IMG/VR virus record: IMGVR_UViG_3300010413_001230
Location: 1 to 49,310 of that record
DNA from: a virus
Direction: 5' to 3' (one strand)
Length of the DNA stretch: 49,310 bases
Position 1 is the stretch's first letter, and each line of letters starts with the position of its first letter. A program made the position numbers and the translations under genes. Under the pieces are notes generated by a model, which did no database searches, was not told the origin of the DNA, and saw only the letters and a program-made list of their open reading frames with translations. Positions 431 to 49,310 of the stretch are shown piece by piece.

Positions 431-532
431 GTTAGCTACTAACCATTATAACAGAAAGCTAACAGAAGTCAATACCTCAAGTAGTTAGGTATTAACCAAA
501 GCAGTTATGTTTCTAACCAGTTAACAGGTTAC
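431..532. promoter_or_regulatory. Operator array between repressor and lytic genes
   Basis: Four 13-14 bp sites share a GTTA...TAAC plan: GTTAGCTACTAAC (431-443), GTTAGGTATTAAC (484-496), GTTATGTTTCTAAC (504-517) and GTTAACAGGTTAC (520-532). The first two are near-perfect palindromes with a 3-bp centre. They overlap the leftward promoter and the leader of the repressor gene, as expected for a lambda-like immunity region. The cognate protein is inferred to be the XRE protein at 566-916. Confidence 0.7.
445..472 (-). promoter_or_regulatory. Strong sigma70-type leftward promoter
   Basis: On the minus strand TTGACT (467-472) is followed after 16 bp by a perfect TATAAT (445-450). It drives the gene starting at 398 and, beyond it, the early operon that continues at the right end of the window. 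A GTTAG half-site lies in the spacer and a full operator (431-443) lies just downstream of the -10 box, so repressor binding would block this promoter. Confidence 0.75.
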
Positions 533-565
533 AATACCTATGAAGGAGGGAAGGGGGTAACTTTG

Positions 566-916
566 ATGTTTCAGGATTGGCTAAGCGAAGAGATCCGAAA
601 AAGTGGCTTGTCTTATAGCGAGATTGCACGACGGGGGGGCATTACTCATGGCAGGATCAGCCAGGTGATAGGAGGTGAAAATCCCGGCATGGCTTTCTGT
701 GCCGGCATTGCCCGAGGGCTGAATCTGCCACCTGATCTGGTCCTTGAAAAAGCCGGCATCATTCCGGCAAGCCGCAACCAAGCAGAGCGCCCGGCAGAGC
801 GTTTTGCTCGTGAGATTGAGCAATTACCGCTTGAGGATCAAGAACTCGTGTTCGATCTAATGGAGCGATTGAGGCAGTTGAGGGCAGCCCCAAGTGACCC
901 ACTGGCAACAAGTTGA
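566..916 (+). CDS. XRE-family HTH transcriptional repressor (CI-like)
   Basis: 116 residues from the ATG at 566; an in-frame TTG at 563 is the alternative. A purine-rich Shine-Dalgarno (AAGGGGGT, 551-558) fits the ATG. Residues 10-65 form a helix-turn-helix of the XRE/Cro-CI class (LSYSEIARRGGITHGRISQVIGG). The rest is a short helical tail without a LexA-type peptidase domain, so any induction would not be by RecA-stimulated self-cleavage in this protein. It is one of only two plus-strand genes, divergent from the lytic operon and upstream of the integrase. This marks it as the lysogeny repressor. Confidence 0.85.
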   Translation: MFQDWLSEEIRKSGLSYSEIARRGGITHGRISQVIGGENPGMAFCAGIARGLNLPPDLVLEKAGIIPASRNQAERPAERFAREIEQLPLEDQELVFDLMERLRQLRAAPSDPLATS

Positions 917-1028: not shown

Positions 1029-1174
1029 TCAAAAGCAAAAGACTGCCGCATTGTAGAGTGATCTGCTTCCCAAGCAGGCGGCCAGGGGTTCAAATCCCCT
1101 CACCCGCTCAGTAGTGCAGGGGGCTATTACCTCTACAATAGGTAGTATAAGGGGTAGTAGCCTTTTGCTTTTGA
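1029..1174. repeat. 13-bp inverted arms flanking the attP core
   Basis: TCAAAAGCAAAAG (1029-1041) and its exact complement CTTTTGCTTTTGA (1162-1174) sit on either side of the tRNA-like core. The arrangement matches arm-type integrase binding sites (P and P' arms) around a core. The right arm would lie inside the integrase gene if translation began at the upstream GTG (1114), which favours the ATG at 1183. Confidence 0.6.
1050..1110 (+). other. attP: attP core: 3' part of a tRNA-Gly(CCC) gene
   Basis: An anticodon arm (1062-1078) with loop TTCCCAA gives anticodon CCC. It is followed by a 5-nt variable loop, a T-arm (1084-1100, loop TTCAAAT), the acceptor 3' strand CACCCGC and discriminator T (1108), which is normal for bacterial tRNA-Gly. 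The 5' acceptor strand (GCGGGTG) and the 5' half of the D-arm are absent, so it is not a functional tRNA. Many integrases use the 3' end of a tRNA gene as attB, with a matching copy in the phage that restores the gene after integration. The adjacent integrase supports this reading. Confidence 0.8.
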
Positions 1175-1182
1175 GGGCATTG

Positions 1183-2064
1183 ATGACCATCTGCTCTTTG
1201 CTGCTCTCAGAGCTGCACGAGGAGTGGCGCTTCGTGCTGCTTGTCGAGGGCAAAGCACCCAAAACAAGCCGCGTCTACCTCGACGCATTGCAACGGCTGA
1301 TCAACATCGTTGGGGATCTGCCCCTGAACCGGGTCACTCGGCAAAACCTGCGTTTCTATTTTGCCCACCGGCAAGAGCAGGGCTTGAGCGCCTACACCAT
1401 CCACCAGGATTTTCGATCCCTACGAACCTTCTTCTACTGGTGCAAGCGGGAAGGGTATCTAACCAGTAGCCCGATGGAGGGCATCAAGCCGCCCCGGTTG
1501 CCGCAAAACCTGCCCAAGGCACTCTCTCCGGGACAGATTGAAATGCTCCTTCGTGCAGTCAAGGGCACTACGCATCCCCAGCGCAACGAAACGATTGTGC
1601 GGCTTTTCCTTGACACCGGCCTGCGATTGTCAGAGCTGATCAACCTCGATGTAGGAGATGTGGACTTGGAGCAGAGCGCGATCATTGTCAGGAAAGGGAA
1701 GGGCAGCAAAGATCGGCATGTGCCGCTCGGGGCAAAGATGCGCTTATGGCTGCACCGCTACCTCAGAAACCGGCCCGAGGCCGAGGCAGAACCACTTTTC
1801 GTCTCACGATTCGGGGAGCGATTCACACGGGATGGCCTGCGGCGTCTCTTCCGTACCCTCGATGCACGTCTGCCCTACCATCTACACCCGCACATGCTGC
1901 GCCATACCTTTGCCACTGAGTATCTCCGGGCAGGGGGCAATCTCGAGTATCTCAGGCGCATCTTGGGCCATACTGGCATCGAGACGACGCAAATCTACTT
2001 GCACATCGTGAATGGCGACCTGACCGAGGCACACAAGAGCCTGTCGCCTGGTGATAGATACTAA
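1183..2064 (+). CDS. int: Tyrosine recombinase / integrase (XerC/D-like)
   Basis: 293 residues from the ATG at 1183, preceded by GAGGG; a GTG at 1114 would add 23 poor residues and include the attP arm. Residues 8-95 are a SAM-like core-binding domain. Residues 115-285 are the catalytic domain with R148 (TGLRLSEL), K173 (GKGSKDR), H237/R240 (HMLRH), H263 (LGHTGIETT) and nucleophile Y272 (IYLHI). It would integrate the phage at a host tRNA-Gly gene via the adjacent attP. Its stop codon overlaps that of the convergent LamG gene (2061-2064), leaving no room for a terminator between them. Confidence 0.93.
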   Translation: MTICSLLLSELHEEWRFVLLVEGKAPKTSRVYLDALQRLINIVGDLPLNRVTRQNLRFYFAHRQEQGLSAYTIHQDFRSLRTFFYWCKREGYLTSSPMEGIKPPRLPQNLPKALSPGQIEMLLRAVKGTTHPQRNETIVRLFLDTGLRLSELINLDVGDVDLEQSAIIVRKGKGSKDRHVPLGAKMRLWLHRYLRNRPEAEAEPLFVSRFGERFTRDGLRRLFRTLDARLPYHLHPHMLRHTFATEYLRAGGNLEYLRRILGHTGIETTQIYLHIVNGDLTEAHKSLSPGDRY

Positions 2065-4020: not shown

Positions 4021-6653
4021 TAGTCGGCGCTCCAATAGGGATCGCGCCACACCATCGTAACTTGCTCTTCTGCCACACCTCCTATGTCAACAAAGAAGGT
4101 GATCAAGTTTGTTCCCGGCCTGAGCGCCCAGGTTCCAAAGTCGGAATTGGGCAACACGATCTGTTGAATCGCTCCCCAAAAGTTGCTATGCACACTCTTT
4201 GCCCCCGGAGCCAGATCAATGGTGATAATTTCACCGGCCAGTGGTTGATAACCACTGATCAAAATCTCCTTGCCCGTTGTCTCATTCCTGAGAGTATATA
4301 CCCGGTTCGTTGACGTTTCCGTTATTCTAAAGATTTCGATTCGAGGGTATGCGTTCTCGGTGCCAAGGTTAGTAATCGTCACATCCCCCGCGTATTGGAA
4401 TTGAGCTGTGGTGGAACTATACCCGGCCCATAGGTTGTAATTTCTTCGTATGACAGGATCGGCCTGATCCGCTACAATGCGGGTGATGTAGCCGCCCCCG
4501 TTAGCATCCAAGGGCGCCCAGTTTGAACCAGTCCACTTTGCGCCGTCGTCTACTGTGATGCCCCCCGCTGTGGTAAAGTTGCCAACGGCATAAAGCACGC
4601 CATCAGGGCCAAAAGCCAGATCGGTTACTGCCCCACCACTGATGCCCGTTCCCAATGCCCGTATAGACTGACCATCCCACATGGCAATGCCATCGGCATT
4701 GGCCACACCGCCGGCATTGGTAAAACTCCCGCCAAAGTATACATTGTCTTGAGCATCAATAACGATGCTGCCTACAAGGTTATTGAGCTGCACAACCTGA
4801 TTCCAGTTTGTGCCGTCCCACATGGCAATGTAATCAATGCCGGCAACCCCGGCCAGGCTGGTGAACTGCCCTCCCACGTACACGTTCCCCTGACTGTCTA
4901 CTGCCACATCATAAATTGCAACAACAACAGCCGGTGCCGTGCTGGGTGCTCCTACAGCATTCCAGGCCGCGCCATCCCACATGGCTACATAGTCGGCAGC
5001 CGGAATGGCAGCCAAGTTCAAGAAGCCGCCCACTACATACAGGTTGACCGGCGCACTGTCAACGCTGGGATCGAATGCGCCTGCATAGATCGGGTTTCCA
5101 AGGCCGGGCAGGTTCGGGTTTCCCACAGCATTCCAGGCCGCACCGTCCCACCGGGCGATCTTGTCAGCATTCGCCACACCGCCGGCAAGTGTAAAATCAC
5201 CAAAGACAAAAAGATCGTTATTCGGTGCCAGGCAAAAGCCACGTACTATGTTGTTCAACCCAACGCCCACGGTCGCCCAGGTTGCCGTGCTGGGAGTGTA
5301 GCTTATGATGTAGTTGGCCGCCCCTCCGAGGTTATCAAAGTTCTGAAAATCGCCGCCATAGTACACAAGTCGATCCTGATCTACAACAACGGCATCAATT
5401 CGGTTGTACGTACCTGCGGCATTGGGTGGTCCCAAGATATTCCACTGCCCGGTATTCACCAATCGAGCGGCAACGATCTGCCTGTTTGCAGTAAAATCAT
5501 TTGTGTCCAATATGGCTGCCGATTCCCCAAGCTTGTAAAAGTTGGGATCGGCTGCCAGGAATCGCAAGGCAAAAGCCTGCTCAAGGCATGGGAAGTCTGC
5601 CCGTATGCGGCCCTCAAGCCCGGCCTCGTAATAGGCGCTGATCTCCTTGGTCACAAAGGCCCCGGTGTAGCGGAGCACAACCGGCTGATTGTTCGGCACG
5701 CTGTTGGGTGCCACGTCCTCAATCAACTGTTGCCGCTTGGCGTGCAGGTCAGAGAGCGAAGTGCCGCGCACCCAACCCGTGAGGGTAAACGGGCGCACAT
5801 TGGTTTTCTGGCTGTTCAGCTCCCCACCGGGCAGGATGGCGTAACTATCCACGTTCAGGGTGATGGGTGACATGCCCGGCCCGATCATACCTTCGATGTC
5901 AAAGTCCCGATCGGCAAAGTCCACCACCAACCCACCGGCCCGGCTTACTGCCGAGCGCTGGCTGATGCTGTTGTGCTCTGGCCCCAACCACTCACAACCG
6001 GGCTGATCACCGCCGCAGTAGGTGGTCACCGTCGAACGCACTTCCATTTGAACGGCATCCACGTAAGCCCCCTGTGGCGGTGTGCCTTCTATGTAGACGT
6101 AGACAGTTATATTGTCGCCCGTTGCGTTTGCGGTCAGTGCATCTGTTTCAAGATGCGCCCACGCGCCGATGCTTGTCCAGGTGGCCTCGACCTGCTGGGC
6201 CACACCAACGCCGGCTGCCTTTGCCAACCTGAGATAAAAGGTTTGACCGGCAGTGCCAAGGTACACCCACGCCGAGGCAACATACCGGGCATTCAGCGTG
6301 CTTGTGATCAGGGTGTTTGTCTGCATTCCCCAATCATCAGCCGCCACCCCGCCGGTCTTGTTCAAGTTCAAACTGTATGCCCCAAACTTTTGCGTCGTAC
6401 TAGATTGAAGCCGTGTCCCTGCAGCTGCACCTGTAGCGTAGTTGTTCCATCCATCGGTGATATTGCGCTCGAAAGAGGGGTTGACGACATAGTTGATTGT
6501 TGCTGTCGGTTGAATGAAGCTCCAAATACCCATACGTTTTACCCTACAACTAGAATCCTGTACGATCGGCAGATAGACATTGTGTAATCCCTGCGCTGCC
6601 GGGTGCAACGTCACCAAGAGCACAAGGAACAGGACCACCATAATTCTCTTCAC
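4020..6653 (-). CDS. Dit-like distal tail protein with beta-propeller insertion and N-terminal export-like signal
   Basis: 877 residues from GTG 6653; ATG 6533 is the alternative start. Residues 1-22 form a hydrophobic signal-like segment followed by VYLPIV (26-31), a motif typical of Chloroflexota exported proteins. About 53-210 is a carbohydrate-binding-like beta-sandwich (NYVVNPSFE...GW). About 235-380 and 700-877 are the two parts expected of a distal tail protein (VRPFTLTGWVRG...; NRVYTLRNETTGKEILISG...). Between them lie at least five propeller blades of the type YVGGxFTxAGGVAxxDxIAxWDGxxW. The start overlaps the upstream gene by about 100 nt. In the overlap this frame has the higher GC at third positions, which supports the long start. 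Confidence 0.7.
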   Translation of the reverse strand: MKRIMVVLFLVLLVTLHPAAQGLHNVYLPIVQDSSCRVKRMGIWSFIQPTATINYVVNPSFERNITDGWNNYATGAAAGTRLQSSTTQKFGAYSLNLNKTGGVAADDWGMQTNTLITSTLNARYVASAWVYLGTAGQTFYLRLAKAAGVGVAQQVEATWTSIGAWAHLETDALTANATGDNITVYVYIEGTPPQGAYVDAVQMEVRSTVTTYCGGDQPGCEWLGPEHNSISQRSAVSRAGGLVVDFADRDFDIEGMIGPGMSPITLNVDSYAILPGGELNSQKTNVRPFTLTGWVRGTSLSDLHAKRQQLIEDVAPNSVPNNQPVVLRYTGAFVTKEISAYYEAGLEGRIRADFPCLEQAFALRFLAADPNFYKLGESAAILDTNDFTANRQIVAARLVNTGQWNILGPPNAAGTYNRIDAVVVDQDRLVYYGGDFQNFDNLGGAANYIISYTPSTATWATVGVGLNNIVRGFCLAPNNDLFVFGDFTLAGGVANADKIARWDGAAWNAVGNPNLPGLGNPIYAGAFDPSVDSAPVNLYVVGGFLNLAAIPAADYVAMWDGAAWNAVGAPSTAPAVVVAIYDVAVDSQGNVYVGGQFTSLAGVAGIDYIAMWDGTNWNQVVQLNNLVGSIVIDAQDNVYFGGSFTNAGGVANADGIAMWDGQSIRALGTGISGGAVTDLAFGPDGVLYAVGNFTTAGGITVDDGAKWTGSNWAPLDANGGGYITRIVADQADPVIRRNYNLWAGYSSTTAQFQYAGDVTITNLGTENAYPRIEIFRITETSTNRVYTLRNETTGKEILISGYQPLAGEIITIDLAPGAKSVHSNFWGAIQQIVLPNSDFGTWALRPGTNLITFFVDIGGVAEEQVTMVWRDPYWSAD

Positions 6654-32390: not shown

Positions 32391-32403
32391 ATCACCATCC
32401 TAT

Positions 32404-32492
32404 CTTGTGTCTTGGCAAGGAGCGCTCATGCCAGGGAGGATATAGCGTAGGGGGGGATACGCTAACATGAGCGCCCTTTGCCAAGACACAAG
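32404..32492. repeat. Long imperfect palindrome upstream of terS
   Basis: 27-bp arms 32404-32430 and 32466-32492 are complementary apart from two or so positions; the outer CTTGTGTCTTGGCAA is perfect. Nested inside is a second perfect 7-bp stem (TAGCGTA 32443-32449, TACGCTA 32458-32464) around a loop containing seven consecutive G. It sits 14 bp from the terS start. Candidate roles are a packaging (pac/cos) recognition site or a regulatory hairpin at the head of the packaging operon. Confidence 0.8.
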
Positions 32493-32520
32493 ACCCCACC
32501 CACAAGATCCGTCTATCAAT

Positions 32521-34087: not shown

Positions 34088-34112
34088 GGTTTTCCCCTTT
34101 CAGATAGGTAGC

Positions 34113-34141
34113 AAAAAAGCACGACAACGCAAGTCGTGCTT
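34113..34141 (-). terminator. Rho-independent terminator ending the early region
   Basis: A perfect 9-bp stem (AAGCACGAC 34117-34125 with GTCGTGCTT 34133-34141) with a 7-nt loop. On the minus strand it is followed by six U (34113-34118 as A on the plus strand). It stops leftward transcripts after the winged-helix gene (34185-34418) and separates early from late genes. Confidence 0.88.
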
Positions 34142-34159
34142 CTGATGATACCACAAGGT

Positions 34160-40192: not shown

Positions 40193-40443
40193 CTTACCCC
40201 CTTCAATTAGCCCTGAACTGCTCCCCATTAGCCCCTGCTTGCTCTCTGTTGGCCCTGGATAGGTCTTAGGTGGCCAAAATTAGAGTATCCAAGGGTCGGT
40301 TAGAAATTATTCCAGTTATGTCTAGCTGGTAACGGTAACGATAGAAACGATAATCCCCCAGGAGATTATTTTTGTAGAATTCACACTAGGATTATGTGAG
40401 AAATTACCGTTTCCTATCGTTACCGTTACCCGTATCGTTACCA
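40193..40443. other. Putative replication origin / regulatory region
   Basis: No gene. A 17-bp inverted repeat (GGTAACGGTAACGATAG 40328-40344, complement at 40414-40430) surrounds an AT-rich centre. The core unit TATCGTTACC recurs at 40433-40442. GGTTAGAAA at 40298 recalls the immunity operators. It is directly downstream of the PrimPol-helicase gene and upstream of the small early genes, the classical setting of a phage origin. A strong promoter is not obvious. Confidence 0.6.
40328..40430. repeat. 17-bp inverted repeats of the putative origin
   Basis: Arms at 40328-40344 and 40414-40430 are perfect complements, about 70 bp apart. Each holds two overlapping GGTAACG-type units. The repeats continue imperfectly into AAACG segments on both sides of the centre. 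Confidence 0.85.
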
Positions 40444-44080: not shown

Positions 44081-44962
44081 CTATATCCACCTCTCTGTAA
44101 ACGTATCATCTCCATAACGCCACGAGGTGACCAGTGTCCCCCGGCTGCTTACAATGTCCTCCCAACCAAGAATCTTTGAGACGACAAAGCGCCCAAACTG
44201 CTCCTGGCCCTCACAGAGGATGTAGCCACACCGGAGCGGTGGCTTCCAGCCGAACTTTTGCCGGCTGTCGAGCATCTGGAAAGCCCCGGTGCGATCTGCA
44301 TAGTCTTGTGCCCGTTCTGGCGCTGTGGCTTGTGCCAATTGCAGGCCCGCGTCGTACTTGCGGCGCTGGATGGGGTTGCTCAACACCTCGTAGGCATGGC
44401 CGATCAGCTTGAATTGTTCATCTGCGTCCGGGTCTTTGCACACATCTGGGTGCCATTGCTTGGCTGCCCGGCGATAGGCTGATTTGAGATCCGCCACGAC
44501 CACCGTGCGCTTGACGCCGAGAACCGCATAGAGCGTTGCGGCCTCTTCCGGCCTGGTATCCACGGCGAACCACTCATGGAGCACAGAGAGCGGAAAGATT
44601 GCCCCCCACTGGCCATTGACCCAACCAAAAGCCGTGGTTTCCCCGTTGCCGCGATCTTTGGCGGCTCCCAGGTATCGCACGTCGAGCAGCCTGGTTTCCG
44701 TTTGCGCCTGGACCCGCACTTGCGGCACCTGCGGCCGGATGCCCAAATGCTGCTCTGCCAGGTCGGCCAGGGTGTTGGCGTGCTGTGGGGCCACCAACCA
44801 GACTTTCTGTTCCCGGTCCCACTGCCGATCCGAATGGGGGATCTTTGCCTTGAGCGCGGCCACGAGGCCCGGATCATAGGGCGACTGAAACGCAAGGGAG
44901 CCATCGCGCTGGGGTGTGATGTGCGCCTCTTCACTTCTGGGTGCAAAGCGTTGGTATCTCAT
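44081..44962 (-). CDS. HARP-like domain fused to a DnaJ J-domain
   Basis: 293 residues. About 20-75 (SLAFQSPYDPGLVAALKAKIPHSDRQWDREQKVWLVAPQHANTLADLAEQHLG) resembles the HARP domain of annealing helicases. About 143-206 is a full J-domain (TLYAVLGVKRTVVVADLKSAYRRAAKQWHPDVCKDPDADEQFKLIGHAYEVLSNPIQRRKYDAG) with the HPD motif at 171-173. Such a protein could recruit host DnaK to DNA or replication complexes (inference), in the manner known for lambda P/DnaJ remodelling. The C-terminal 80 residues are unassigned. Confidence 0.75.
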   Translation of the reverse strand: MRYQRFAPRSEEAHITPQRDGSLAFQSPYDPGLVAALKAKIPHSDRQWDREQKVWLVAPQHANTLADLAEQHLGIRPQVPQVRVQAQTETRLLDVRYLGAAKDRGNGETTAFGWVNGQWGAIFPLSVLHEWFAVDTRPEEAATLYAVLGVKRTVVVADLKSAYRRAAKQWHPDVCKDPDADEQFKLIGHAYEVLSNPIQRRKYDAGLQLAQATAPERAQDYADRTGAFQMLDSRQKFGWKPPLRCGYILCEGQEQFGRFVVSKILGWEDIVSSRGTLVTSWRYGDDTFTERWI

Positions 44963-45162
44963 AGCCCCACCACATCTCTCAAGTGTCTATAAGCGCACTC
45001 GGCTTTCTTCGTGGCTTTCCACCCTCGCCACTTGGGCAAGTCGACCAGGGCGACAATCTCCCCGGCGGGCTTGGTGCTGCTCTTGACGATCTCGGCCTGG
45101 TCAAAGTGCAGGCCGATCACGGTTGTGTCACTCAGTCGGACTTGTTTAGGGTTGGGATTCAC
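44959..45162 (-). CDS. Small hypothetical protein (67 residues)
   Basis: GTG 45162 overlaps the exonuclease stop (GTGA) and its own end overlaps the J-domain gene, so it is tightly coupled. Beta-rich start (LSDTTVIGLHFDQAEIV) and a basic, aromatic end (LPKWRGWKATKKAECAYRHLRDVVG). No family is recognised. Association with the recombination genes is likely. Confidence 0.62.
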   Translation of the reverse strand: MNPNPKQVRLSDTTVIGLHFDQAEIVKSSTKPAGEIVALVDLPKWRGWKATKKAECAYRHLRDVVGL

Positions 45163-45947
45163 GTTGCACCTCGACAAATCCCCCAGTATTCGCAATAGCG
45201 CGGGCTACACTTGAACGTGGTCGTGTTCGGCGGGAAAGCACCCGCGCTGATCGCCTCCCACGTCTCTTTGATCAGGCCAAAGAGCCAGAACATTTGCCCG
45301 ATGGTCCGATAGGATTCCCAGATCTGGATCTGTGGTTTCTTGGTCTTGACGAAAACATAGTGCCTGAACAGGCCACAGTTGAGGGTGTATCCCGCCTGAT
45401 TCTGCGCGGCCAAGTAAAACACCGGCTGCAACTCGCCATCAGCCTGATCCTGATTCCAAGAGCGCCCGGACGTTTTAAAGTCGGCGGGGATTCCATCGGC
45501 TTCGATCAAGTCGATGTACCCAACGATCGGAATCGGGACGCCGGGCACCTGGAGCTCTATGTACCGCTCGATCTGTACCTGCTCCTCGAGTACCATCGGC
45601 TGTAAGGCATCTACTAGGGCGATTGTGTCAGGGTCAGAGAACATACGCACGCCCAAGTTGCACATCTCTTCTGGCGTGTCGCCGTCCCAGCAAACATCCC
45701 GATCCTCAAGCTGTGCTGTCCAATTCCTTTGCCAATGGTTGATCAATGGTTCCTCTGCTGAACCAGCAAAGCCAGTTTTGATGTAGTCCTCAACCGTATC
45801 GTGAAACGCGCTTCCGAAAATCAGCGCCGGGCTCGTCGGCGTTTGTACCTTGTCCAGATAGTGAAACCGCCAAGAGCGGGGGCACATCTGGTAGGTGCTG
45901 ATACTGGAATAGCTCAGGTGATCAATTTGGCTTGTGATGTCAACCAT
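45159..45947 (-). CDS. PD-(D/E)XK exonuclease (RecB/Cas4-like)
   Basis: 262 residues from ATG 45947, eight bases inside the RecT-like gene. YSSISTYQMCPRSWRFHYLDKV (N-terminal Cys), FGSAFHDTVEDYI (His), VGYIDLIEADGIPADFKTS (metal Asp/Lys) and QPVFYLAA build the nuclease core. A C-terminal CSPRYCEYWGICRG supplies three more cysteines, the 4Fe-4S arrangement of AddB/Cas4-type nucleases. Together with the next gene it would form a RecE/RecT-like recombination pair. Confidence 0.85.
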   Translation of the reverse strand: MVDITSQIDHLSYSSISTYQMCPRSWRFHYLDKVQTPTSPALIFGSAFHDTVEDYIKTGFAGSAEEPLINHWQRNWTAQLEDRDVCWDGDTPEEMCNLGVRMFSDPDTIALVDALQPMVLEEQVQIERYIELQVPGVPIPIVGYIDLIEADGIPADFKTSGRSWNQDQADGELQPVFYLAAQNQAGYTLNCGLFRHYVFVKTKKPQIQIWESYRTIGQMFWLFGLIKETWEAISAGAFPPNTTTFKCSPRYCEYWGICRGAT

Positions 45948-46686
45948 TGGAGGCCTCCAACTTCTCAGCCACAGCCTTGCACTCTTCCGATGTTGCCGGG
46001 ATTTTGCCCTCATTGGCGCTCATGATCTCTTCCGGCCCCCACTGCTCCAAGAGCGCTTCGATGGTGTCAAAGGTCGGGGCTTGTGGCTCCTGTACTGGTG
46101 CAGGTATCCAATCGTTGTCAATGGTGACTGTATCCCCCTCAGCCGTCACCTCGGCGCCCAACTCATCGGTGCGCTTCATCCCGCCGATGATGTCAGGAAA
46201 CACCACATCGGCGCAAAAGCCCACGGCACGCCACCTGAGCATATTGGCCGGCCACTTTTCCCAACCGCTGCCCGGTTTGACCAGTCCGGCCCGCTCGGCA
46301 TCTTCCATCGTCACCGTGACCGAGTAGACAAATTCCCCCCTGCCCATCGTGACGGTGCAGGCGCTTGGCTTGCCACCCTTATCCTGCTGATCCTCAATCT
46401 CCAACTTGGTGCAAAGTGGCGATTGCTGAATCAGCGCCAGGCAGCCACGAGGTGAAAGGCCAACATGCCCCTGGATCACCTGCACGAACTCGAAAGATGC
46501 CGTCAAGCTCAAGCCCAGCTCATACCCCTTGAGCATAATGGCCATGGCCTGCTCGGGATTGCTGACGCCAAACAGCCGCGCCTTGTGCATCGCCGGGCCG
46601 ATGGCGCTGATCATCTCCCAAACTTGCGGCGTGAGTTGTGGGGCAACTGTAAGCGCCCTGGTCTGATATTCTGGCTTAGTTTCCAT
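45940..46686 (-). CDS. RecT-like single-strand annealing protein
   Basis: 248 residues. NPEQAMAIMLKGYELGLSLTASFEFVQVIQGHVGLSPRGCLALIQQSPLCTKLEI is the characteristic start of phage RecT-type annealing proteins. VTVTMEDAERAGLVKPGSGWEKWPANMLRWRAVGFCADVVFPDIIGG matches their central block. It would anneal single strands exposed by the adjacent exonuclease. The acidic tail (QWGPEEIMSANEGKIPATSEECKAVAEKLEASNG) could bind SSB or nuclease. Confidence 0.82.
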   Translation of the reverse strand: METKPEYQTRALTVAPQLTPQVWEMISAIGPAMHKARLFGVSNPEQAMAIMLKGYELGLSLTASFEFVQVIQGHVGLSPRGCLALIQQSPLCTKLEIEDQQDKGGKPSACTVTMGRGEFVYSVTVTMEDAERAGLVKPGSGWEKWPANMLRWRAVGFCADVVFPDIIGGMKRTDELGAEVTAEGDTVTIDNDWIPAPVQEPQAPTFDTIEALLEQWGPEEIMSANEGKIPATSEECKAVAEKLEASNG

Positions 46687-47473: not shown

Positions 47474-47811
47474 TGCTCCCTCGAGTATTTTTCCAAAACT
47501 TGCTTGGTCATCTCTACAATTTGCGGTTCAAATTCCGTCGTTACAGTTTCCCACCGGATCGAGAGAGCTTCAAGCTCTTGGGCAAAGTCATAGCAAACCT
47601 GCGATGATTTGAACGCTTTAGAGACAACCAGACCATGCCCGTTGGCCAGTGTCCAGTCTACAGGATTGCGAAACATCACAAACGACTTTGACACCCGAAA
47701 ACCTCTGAACACATCGAGACGTTCCAGCTTACATCTTGGGAAGAATTTTGACCACTGAATAGCTACGGGGATTGATGGTCCCAAATCAATGGACCCGTTC
47801 TTTATCCGCAT
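47470..47811 (-). CDS. Hypothetical protein (113 residues)
   Basis: Mixed alpha/beta, with VSKSFVMFRNPVDWTLANGHGLVVSKAFKSSQVCYDFAQELEALSIRWETV. The local base composition is more AT-rich than in the flanking nuclease gene. It is coupled by a four-base overlap to the ERCC4 gene, which suggests a functional link. No family is recognised. Confidence 0.6.
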   Translation of the reverse strand: MRIKNGSIDLGPSIPVAIQWSKFFPRCKLERLDVFRGFRVSKSFVMFRNPVDWTLANGHGLVVSKAFKSSQVCYDFAQELEALSIRWETVTTEFEPQIVEMTKQVLEKYSREQ

Positions 47812-47989
47812 GTTGATCCTCCCTGTTTTCTTCCGCCCGATACACCTGCCTGACCTCTTTGCACAATGCGCATGTGCCCAAGTAGTTGATCAGATGCAGT
47901 CGCCCCCCGGCTCGTGTATGGTTCCGCGTGTCCAGTGGGATTTGGTATACCCCTGCACACTCTCTACAGATCCAAAGTTCCGTATCCAC
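47786..47989 (-). CDS. Small zinc-ribbon protein
   Basis: 67 residues from GTG 47989 (GAGGAG eight bases upstream); the ORF is open for 37 more codons, but that part is Arg-rich and looks like shadow. CREC...CALC (residues about 8 and 38) form a two-knuckle zinc ribbon in a basic background. It may regulate or bind nucleic acid. It overlaps the next gene by 26 bp. Confidence 0.55.
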   Translation of the reverse strand: MDTELWICRECAGVYQIPLDTRNHTRAGGRLHLINYLGTCALCKEVRQVYRAEENREDQHADKERVH

Positions 47990-48149
47990 GGGGAGCACTC
48001 CTCTGTCTTGCCGGACGTGATGACGTGCTCTCCTCCTATCCTTTGGGGCTGCTCTGCCGTCTAGGGAATACGCCCGACCTGATTCCCTGCGAATCCACAT
48101 AATGGGGTGCTTGCAGTTCTAGTCACGAACAGAGCAGCCACTTCTTTCA
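47990..48149. other. Non-coding leader between structured element and next gene
   Basis: I see no credible gene apart from the upstream reading of the zinc-ribbon ORF. No clear sigma70 promoter is visible on the minus strand. It would form the 5' part of the transcript downstream of the structured element. Confidence 0.35.
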
Positions 48150-48234
48150 TCGCTCTTGGGTGCCCCCAAGGATACCGGGCTACCTTGGGCTCTGTCCTTC
48201 TTATTCACCCGGTCGGACTAGCACCCAAGAGCGA
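48150..48234 (-). ncRNA. Structured RNA / multibranch element, candidate leader
   Basis: Outer stem TCGCTCTTGGGTGC (48150-48163) with its exact complement (48221-48234), 14 bp. Inside lie CCCAAGG/CCTTGGG (48165-48171, 48183-48189) and a smaller GTCC/GGAC stem (48194-48197, 48215-48218). Read on either strand it makes a three-way junction. It begins where the T-run of a terminator ends, so it could regulate readthrough, as the put antitermination RNAs of HK022 do, or be a processed RNA. No gene fits here. Confidence 0.55.
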
Positions 48235-48265
48235 AAAAAGTGGGGCCATTTTACGCCCGGCCCCA
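48234..48265 (-). terminator. Rho-independent terminator after the first early genes
   Basis: Stem TGGGGCC (48241-48247) with GGCCCCA (48259-48265), then six U on the minus strand (A at 48234-48239). It ends the transcript from the operon of the 48468-49163 and 48289-48471 genes. Expression of the rest of the early region then needs a new promoter or antitermination. Confidence 0.78.
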
Positions 48266-48288
48266 AAGGCGTACTCCACAAACCTATT

Positions 48289-48471
48289 CTATTGGCCTGC
48301 CAAAATGAGCGTTACCTGTTCCCCCTCCTCTCTGCTGGCTTGATCCAGCAGCACATTGGCGTGCTCGATGGCCTTTTGCGGATCGGCCCGGTAAAGGCGA
48401 TCAAACGCTCGGCGTATGCGTAACGCCCAACGATTGGCCTGCAGGGTGCGGAACCTCACAAAGGACTTCAC
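48289..48471 (-). CDS. Small basic helical protein (60 residues)
   Basis: MKSFVRFRTLQANRWALRIRRAFDRLYRADPQKAIEHANVLLDQASREEGEQVTLILAGQ is a basic helix pair followed by an acidic helix. Coupled by four bases to the upstream gene. No family is recognised. A 14-bp sequence around its stop codon (48287-48300) is also found at 28421-28434. Confidence 0.6.
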   Translation of the reverse strand: MKSFVRFRTLQANRWALRIRRAFDRLYRADPQKAIEHANVLLDQASREEGEQVTLILAGQ

Positions 48472-49163
48472 GCCGCCACCCCAGCACCCACGAGGTCCAG
48501 AACCTCGGGGCTGTTCAGGTCAAAGTGCTTGGCCAGGCTGTCATTGGCCTGCAAAAGCTCCCCGAACTTGATCACGTCCTGACCGGCCTGCGTCCACAAG
48601 AGTGGCAGGAACTTGGCCAGGTTAGCGCGCTCTGCGCCATCCCCACCGGGCTTGGGCGCTTCGGCCTCGGGCATCGGCAACGGCGTCTCTTCATCCTCAA
48701 TACCCCGGCGGTAGTGCGCGGCCTCGGCGGCCCGGCACTCCTCTTCGCTGTCATAGATGGCCCGGAACTTGAACGTGGTGGCCTGCACCTCTTCGCCGGT
48801 CGTGTTGCTGTGGTAGCTGCGCCCGGTGTTGACCATCTCCCAGGAGGCCCACCGCTCGTCCAGATCGCGGGGATGAACCCCGGCCACTTTGAGCGATGGC
48901 AACACGATCCCGGCCCACTCACGCCCGAACTCGGCGATCATCTCGCGGTTGATGGTGTACTCACTCCCATCGGCCCGGTGACAAACGCCGTCGATCTTGA
49001 TCTGGGTGAACTTCTTGTCAGCGGGATGCCGACCTTCGTCAAAGAGTACCTTCGGCTCTCCCTTGCTGATGTAGACAAAATCCGAGAGGGCAAAGACTTG
49101 GCCGAAATAAATTTTCGGACCAAGGCTTGCTTCATTGGCTACATCCCACGGATCTTTACTCAT
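48468..49163 (-). CDS. Early protein of unknown function (231 residues)
   Basis: A beta-rich N-terminus (IYFGQVFALSDFVYISKGEPKVLFDEGRHPADKKFTQIKIDGVC), a W-rich centre (GREWAGIVLPSLKVAG...DLDERWASWEMVNTGRSYHSNTTGEEVQATTFKFRAIYDSEEECRAAEAAHY), an acidic linker and a helical C-terminus. The layout (OB-like start, acidic tail) would suit a single-strand DNA-binding or nucleic-acid protein, but I cannot support that from motifs. It is the second gene of the leftward operon and its variant starts at base 33. Confidence 0.65.
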   Translation of the reverse strand: MSKDPWDVANEASLGPKIYFGQVFALSDFVYISKGEPKVLFDEGRHPADKKFTQIKIDGVCHRADGSEYTINREMIAEFGREWAGIVLPSLKVAGVHPRDLDERWASWEMVNTGRSYHSNTTGEEVQATTFKFRAIYDSEEECRAAEAAHYRRGIEDEETPLPMPEAEAPKPGGDGAERANLAKFLPLLWTQAGQDVIKFGELLQANDSLAKHFDLNSPEVLDLVGAGVAA

Positions 49164-49310
49164 GATTCTTGCTCCTTCTGATTGAAAAGTCTACCCCCAA
49201 ACGAAGCGACATTCCCCCTTTCACCTCCCTTGTGCTATACTTGAAGCGCCTCCCCAACGATCTCATCTCTGCGCGTCAACGTCGTGCATTCCACGCAACG
49301 ATACAAATTC
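49161..49310. repeat. Right copy of the near-identical terminal repeat
   Basis: Ungapped match to 31-180, offset 49,130, with about six mismatches. It includes the ATG of the 231-residue gene, a leader and the 3' part of the zinc-ribbon regulator gene. It fixes the genome unit at about 49.13 kb. Confidence 0.9.
49235..49310 (-). CDS. 3' end of a second copy of the zinc-ribbon regulator
   Basis: The last 25 codons of a gene almost identical to 105-398, cut by the window edge (stop CTA at 49235-49237). One substitution (base 49284) distinguishes it from the left copy. Confidence 0.75.
   Translation of the reverse strand, partial: NLYRCVECTTLTRRDEIVGEALQV

Follow-up and report, generated by a model that had tools for sequence, protein, structure and literature searches.

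The early operon of the phage analysed here raises a question: what is the role of a strongly folded RNA segment located directly behind an intrinsic terminator? The window, which is the whole stretch of DNA analysed, contains the 49,310 nt of the IMG/VR record IMGVR_UViG_3300010413_001230, and a first-pass annotation, made from the sequence alone, had proposed an RNA-based readthrough system of put type at this locus. To our knowledge, protein-free RNA elements controlling early phage transcription are rarely described, HK022 put being the standard case. In place of the proposed antitermination switch, the region appears to be a new regulatory RNA, best read as a cis-acting RNA of early phage operons not described before, with a constant hairpin (stem 2) after a variable branched domain (element 1 in the window). 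The factual part of this reading, namely that an RNA hairpin is conserved and has a variable branched domain beside it, is very probably correct. If the whole is true, it would be a new regulatory RNA open to testing: a conserved hairpin combined with a branched domain that can be exchanged, missing from Rfam and shared by two phage lineages whose early operons are unrelated. The swap that has occurred naturally between two near-identical phages offers a genetic experiment ready for use.

The genome in the window belongs to a temperate phage, a virus of a sediment bacterium, and has HK97-type capsid, portal, protease and terminase genes in addition to those for an integrase and a repressor (Table 1). 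Its ends show an imperfect overlap of 168 bp (94%). Protein searches with the early genes for close relatives found one contig and no other: IMG/VR contig 3300009506_000278 (G001), hereafter the sister phage, whose metagenome is sample MaiPo-8 of a study on sedimentary archaea (PMC6461988). Since in the sister an unbroken stretch takes in the promoter, three early genes, the terminator and the genes that follow, the early operon of the window spans the window ends. The gene following stem 2 encodes a protein of 67 aa, its start codon at 47989 being inferred from the alignment with the sister, and beyond it are found a 113-aa gene, an ERCC4 nuclease gene, a RecT-like gene, the exonuclease and DnaJ-domain genes and a primase-helicase gene. 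The region between 917 and 1113 contains a partial tRNA-Gly(CCC)-like 3' part beside the integrase gene, which is likely attP; no exact 45-nt match to this tRNA fragment was found in the GTDB genome collection, and a host search by capsid alignment against the genome collection gave nothing. An AT-rich intergenic stretch past the primase gene (40229-40443), whose sequence includes GGTAACG repeats as well as a long inverted repeat, is a possible replication origin. The strongest fold in the window (32401-32494, minus strand) is an inverted repeat of 28 bp, nearly perfect and enclosing an inner hairpin, just upstream of the GTG start codon of what is probably the gene for the small terminase subunit.

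Table 1. Coordinates in the window of the features of the early region and of the adjacent lysogeny genes.
Feature	Coordinates	Strand	Description
Early promoter PL	445..472	-	TTGACT-16-TATAAT, 11/12; divergent from repressor; identical promoter in the sister phage
HTH repressor	563-916	+	
Tyrosine integrase	1114-2064	+	
Terminator T2	34110..34142	-	Next intergenic intrinsic terminator on the same strand, 14 kb from T1 and element 1
67-aa gene	47786..47989	-	Zinc-finger-like protein (CxxC pairs); next gene past stem 2
Stem 2	48047..48139	-	Conserved core; arms 48139-48125 and 48060-48047; directly follows element 1
P0	48138..48243	-	Outer extension enclosing element 1; 48243-48234 (CCACUUUUUU) pairs with 48147-48138 (AAAGAAGUGG)
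Element 1	48150..48234	-	15-bp outer stem closing a three-way junction, directly after the T1 U-run
Element 1, 7-bp hairpin	48189-48165	-	CCCAAGG/CCTTGGG
Element 1, 4-bp hairpin	48218-48194	-	GTCC/GGAC
Terminator T1	48234..48265	-	Intrinsic terminator; 8-bp GC-rich stem at 48265-48240, then six U at 48239-48234
60-aa gene	48289..48471	-	Last gene ahead of T1; 98% identical in the sister phage

The strong terminator and the branched structure described by the first-pass annotation at 48150-48265 are confirmed on the minus strand, and their location in the early region, with the rest of the early operon beyond, is also borne out. T1 shows a stem energy of about -15 kcal/mol and is retained in the sister phage, where one C to T change gives a longer U-run. 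A 10-nt perfect complement of the T1 5' arm (CCTTTGGGGC, 48260-48269) lies at 48040-48049, just past stem 2, and is not shared by the sister. Element 1 has an outer stem in which 13 of the 15 bp are perfect (CGCTCTTGGGTGC/GCACCCAAGAGCG), two internal hairpins and a fold energy of -44 to -46 kcal/mol; its z is about -4.6, or -5.0 with T1 included, and none of 200 shuffles was as stable. Perfect inverted repeats of at least 13 bp with arms within 120 nt are present at four sites in the window (1029, 32403, 40328 and 48150) and absent from 20 locally shuffled copies of it, and by minimum free energy corrected for GC (MFE/GC residual scan) element 1 ranks about seventh in the window: its fold is strong but not unique there. 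A 6-nt stretch in one hairpin loop is perfectly complementary to one in the other, ACCGGG/CCCGGU (loop-shuffling p about 0.015), and a loop-loop (kissing) pairing between 48213-48208 and 48179-48174 is possible. Through P0 the outer stem runs on, with a 3-nt bulge, into the U-run and the 3' end of T1, and reaches about 23 bp in total. No further copies of element 1 were found in the window, its relatives, phages, plasmids or viral contigs, the latter queried with a sequence pattern from element 1, and BLAST of the region against phages and plasmids gave nothing meaningful.

The order of transcription decides against readthrough of T1 as the role of this structure. Element 1 is transcribed after T1 and cannot cause its readthrough, because the RNA of element 1 exists only once the polymerase has passed T1. 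A put-type antiterminator acting on T1 would agree with an early operon in which no antiterminator protein is recognised, with a two-hairpin RNA and with the lack of a clear promoter past T1, but it is contradicted by this order and by the sister, which has the same T1 and no element 1, and it is very improbable. The likeness to put also fails in the model comparison: model R3, built from the putL/putR pair located in NC_002166, shows no match in the window at E<=10 with filters on, and its best score is 3.9 bits in 47950-49310 with filters off. What stands of the put-type idea is a conserved RNA part in the early operon of a relative whose early region is otherwise unrelated, as expected of a nut or put site; what falls is the readthrough of T1. 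As the element lies after T1, its possible targets are limited to sites further downstream, and T2 is the sole intergenic intrinsic terminator found as a potential one. A promoter downstream of T1 would have been another explanation for the expression of the remaining genes, and none scoring at least 9/12 is seen from T1 to the next genes. With no such promoter, the genes past T1 may be reached through a leaky T1, an unusual promoter or another factor.

Comparison with the sister separates a variable and a constant part. The proteins encoded beside the element are 90-100% identical in both phages, and the site of element 1 contains an unrelated cassette in the sister: between the U-run and AAGTGG, it shows 59 nt folding as a perfect four-way junction and an imperfect hairpin of ~100 nt, without element 1 and with no uninterrupted stem above about 11 bp. 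A shorter P0 (CCAUUU/AAGUGG) surrounds this replacement cassette. Amid the replaced sequence, two islands are identical in both sisters, AAGTGGCTGCTCTGTTCGTGAC and CTAGACGGCAGAGCAGCC, and these are the arms of stem 2, which are therefore 100% identical, while the sequence between and ahead of the arms is unrelated. Since the islands are identical and the rest differs, the first-pass annotation had picked out the variable part, with the conserved one located just past it. Mosaic patches are also found elsewhere: the exonuclease and DnaJ-domain genes (45159-46013 and 44081-44962) are 76-80% identical to those of the sister, and most of their neighbours are near 100%.

Stem 2 has arms of 14 bp with one U-G pair and one bulged U, followed after the 5' arm by an invariant GAC, and its apical part is variable, with an arm spacing of about 23-64 nt. 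A covariance model built from the two sisters only finds a copy in a distant phage with 37 bits and an E-value of about 1.6e-6, which is approximate owing to a short calibration, and no second match in 277 kb from 28 sources. This distant relative, contig 3300028840_002358 (G004; G005 is identical in sequence), surfaced through a capsid search, and it is the only relative found in this way (as two identical contigs) which has stem 2; the other capsid relatives, mostly short fragments, show no copy. Its structural genes are ~40-80% identical to those of the window at the amino-acid level, none of the tested early genes is common to both, and the proteins neighbouring its stem 2 are non-homologous to those of the window. 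When all sequence collected was searched with the sister cassette, the distant relative turned out to match the sister cloverleaf exactly over 18 nt, and the distant stem 2 (GGCTGCGCTGTTCGTGAC...ACGGCAGCGCGGCC) lies ~40 nt past this match, after the first early gene and ~440 nt downstream of an early promoter (TTGACA-18-TATACT). Ahead of it lies a cloverleaf-like fold closed by a stem of 7-8 bp, and no equivalent of P0 is seen there by eye. In another part of this contig (L018), a predicted methyltransferase gene contains two hairpin palindromes, both perfect and over 30 bases long (4639-4673 and 4779-4812).

Pairing in stem 2 is retained at 14 of the 14 pairs in all three sequences, which are the independent sequences (n=3) in the collections searched. 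The distant phage shows one compensatory change (U-A to G-C) and one change from U-A to U-G; the shuffle control of this covariation is weak, with 180 of 500 shuffles reaching the observed value, since just two pairs vary. The U-G pairs form on the transcribed strand alone, which points to an RNA rather than a DNA feature. Behind stem 2, all three phages lack a U-run, which argues against a free-standing terminated sRNA; a free sRNA would need processing. The distant phage contains a 48-aa ORF with a good ribosome-binding site (6379-6522 of L018), which runs through the cloverleaf, ends inside stem 2 and is absent elsewhere. A conserved small peptide encoded through stem 2 was thus rejected: the frame with the good ribosome-binding site is exclusive to the distant phage, and its counterpart in the window is broken by a stop seven codons upstream. 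Rfam gives no family above the gathering threshold in the whole window and nothing meaningful at E<=10 in all three phages, and ARAGORN scans found no tRNA. Every copy of stem 2 is in sense orientation within the early operon, where it sits between one early gene and the module that follows, close to the ribosome-binding site of the next gene, whose start codon is about 30-60 nt off. On sequence comparison, stem 2 is a self-contained conserved RNA motif, with a homologous copy in an independent genome in which the pairing is kept. Conservation of both sequence and pairing despite differing genes, together with the sense orientation, the position and the U-G pairs, points to an RNA acting in cis within the early transcript.

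Element 1 would then be the front part of a structured, untranslated cis-acting segment of ~190 nt within the early transcript. The slot ahead of stem 2 is occupied by a three-way junction in the window and by a cloverleaf-like fold in the distant phage; in the sister it contains a four-way junction and a long hairpin. This branched domain may be an exchangeable spacer or a specificity module. Stem 2 would be a recognition site, in the nascent or fresh early mRNA, for RNA polymerase or a host factor, and its recognition would set the expression of the downstream replication and recombination genes, possibly by altering the behaviour of the polymerase at sites further downstream, nut- or put-like in effect; the preceding T1 would not be acted on. 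Recognition of stem 2 in nascent RNA, altering the expression of the genes beyond, is tentatively favoured. A role of stem 2 in translation control or in protection of the mRNA 5' end fits as well, given the nearby ribosome-binding site. An RNA-encoded transcription control in the full sense, with a constant polymerase-binding hairpin and an interchangeable branched module in phages with unrelated early genes, seems unlikely.

Processing of the RNA or protection of its 5' end is possible, and nearly as likely as the favoured recognition in nascent RNA. The stems (the 23-bp P0+P1 and the 14-bp stem 2) would be cut by a double-strand-specific RNase or would block exonucleases, so that the first early genes and the replication genes would end up on separate mRNAs and the new 5' end would be shielded. 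A long stem right at the border of gene modules agrees with such punctuation, as does an element 1 whose sequence is free to vary with some structure kept in each phage, and the location near the start of the next gene suits 5'-end protection; however, the near-invariant sequence of stem 2, including the unpaired GAC, exceeds the needs of a sequence-blind nuclease, and the limit of about 11 bp on uninterrupted stems in the sister also speaks against it.

Two further roles are less likely than recognition in nascent RNA and processing. A DNA-level feature, such as a replication origin, a site of recombination or exchange, or a small mobile insertion of palindromic sequence, would account for the perfect inverted repeats where modules meet, at this locus as well as at 32403 and 40328, and for the sharp cassette swap between identical islands. 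It is improbable, as the U-G pairs and variable arm spacing of stem 2 fit RNA, element 1 has no other copy in any of the collections searched and no target duplication is seen. An RNA-based immunity or antisense control as in P4 (CI RNA) or P1 (C4 RNA), with the variable domain as specificity determinant, is quite improbable. It would explain a hypervariable structured RNA in an early transcript with near-identical flanks, and the transcript of the distant phage includes, ~190 nt further upstream, a 9-nt stretch perfectly complementary to the common cloverleaf arm; but this complement is missing in the sister outside the arm itself, the protein repressor is 100% identical in both sisters and Rfam gives no match.

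Known systems share some of these features. In P4 and P1, the CI RNA and the C4 antisense RNA are structured RNAs in the early leader whose sequence differs among related phages; the present region differs from them in the lack of an Rfam match and in the identical repressor of the sisters. A likeness to tRNA is found in the four-way cloverleaf with a 7-8 bp closing stem folded by the sister and the distant phage, and in a UUCGAUC stretch of the latter which resembles a T-loop, but neither ARAGORN nor Rfam finds a tRNA and element 1 of the window is a three-way junction. The nut site of lambda is a small hairpin recognised in the early transcript for N-dependent antitermination, and nutR is located after the first early gene; stem 2 is likewise a hairpin in an early transcript, but it is far longer than boxB and no N-like gene is recognised here. 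The put RNA of HK022 is located upstream of the terminators that it suppresses, and acts via the beta-prime zinc-binding domain of the polymerase without any phage protein. Its putL and putR sites are two-hairpin RNAs of ~70 nt in an early phage operon, putR being ~270 nt past its promoter, and a bulged U in stem II matters (PMC9378689). Here the region contains a branched domain plus a hairpin, is located after a terminator and gives no match to the put model. Where put has two successive stem-loops close to the start of its early transcript, this region has two consecutive domains, element 1 and stem 2 in the window, ~1.3 kb past PL there and ~370-440 nt past the promoter in the distant phage; like put, it occupies an early operon, and stem 2 too has an invariant bulged U.
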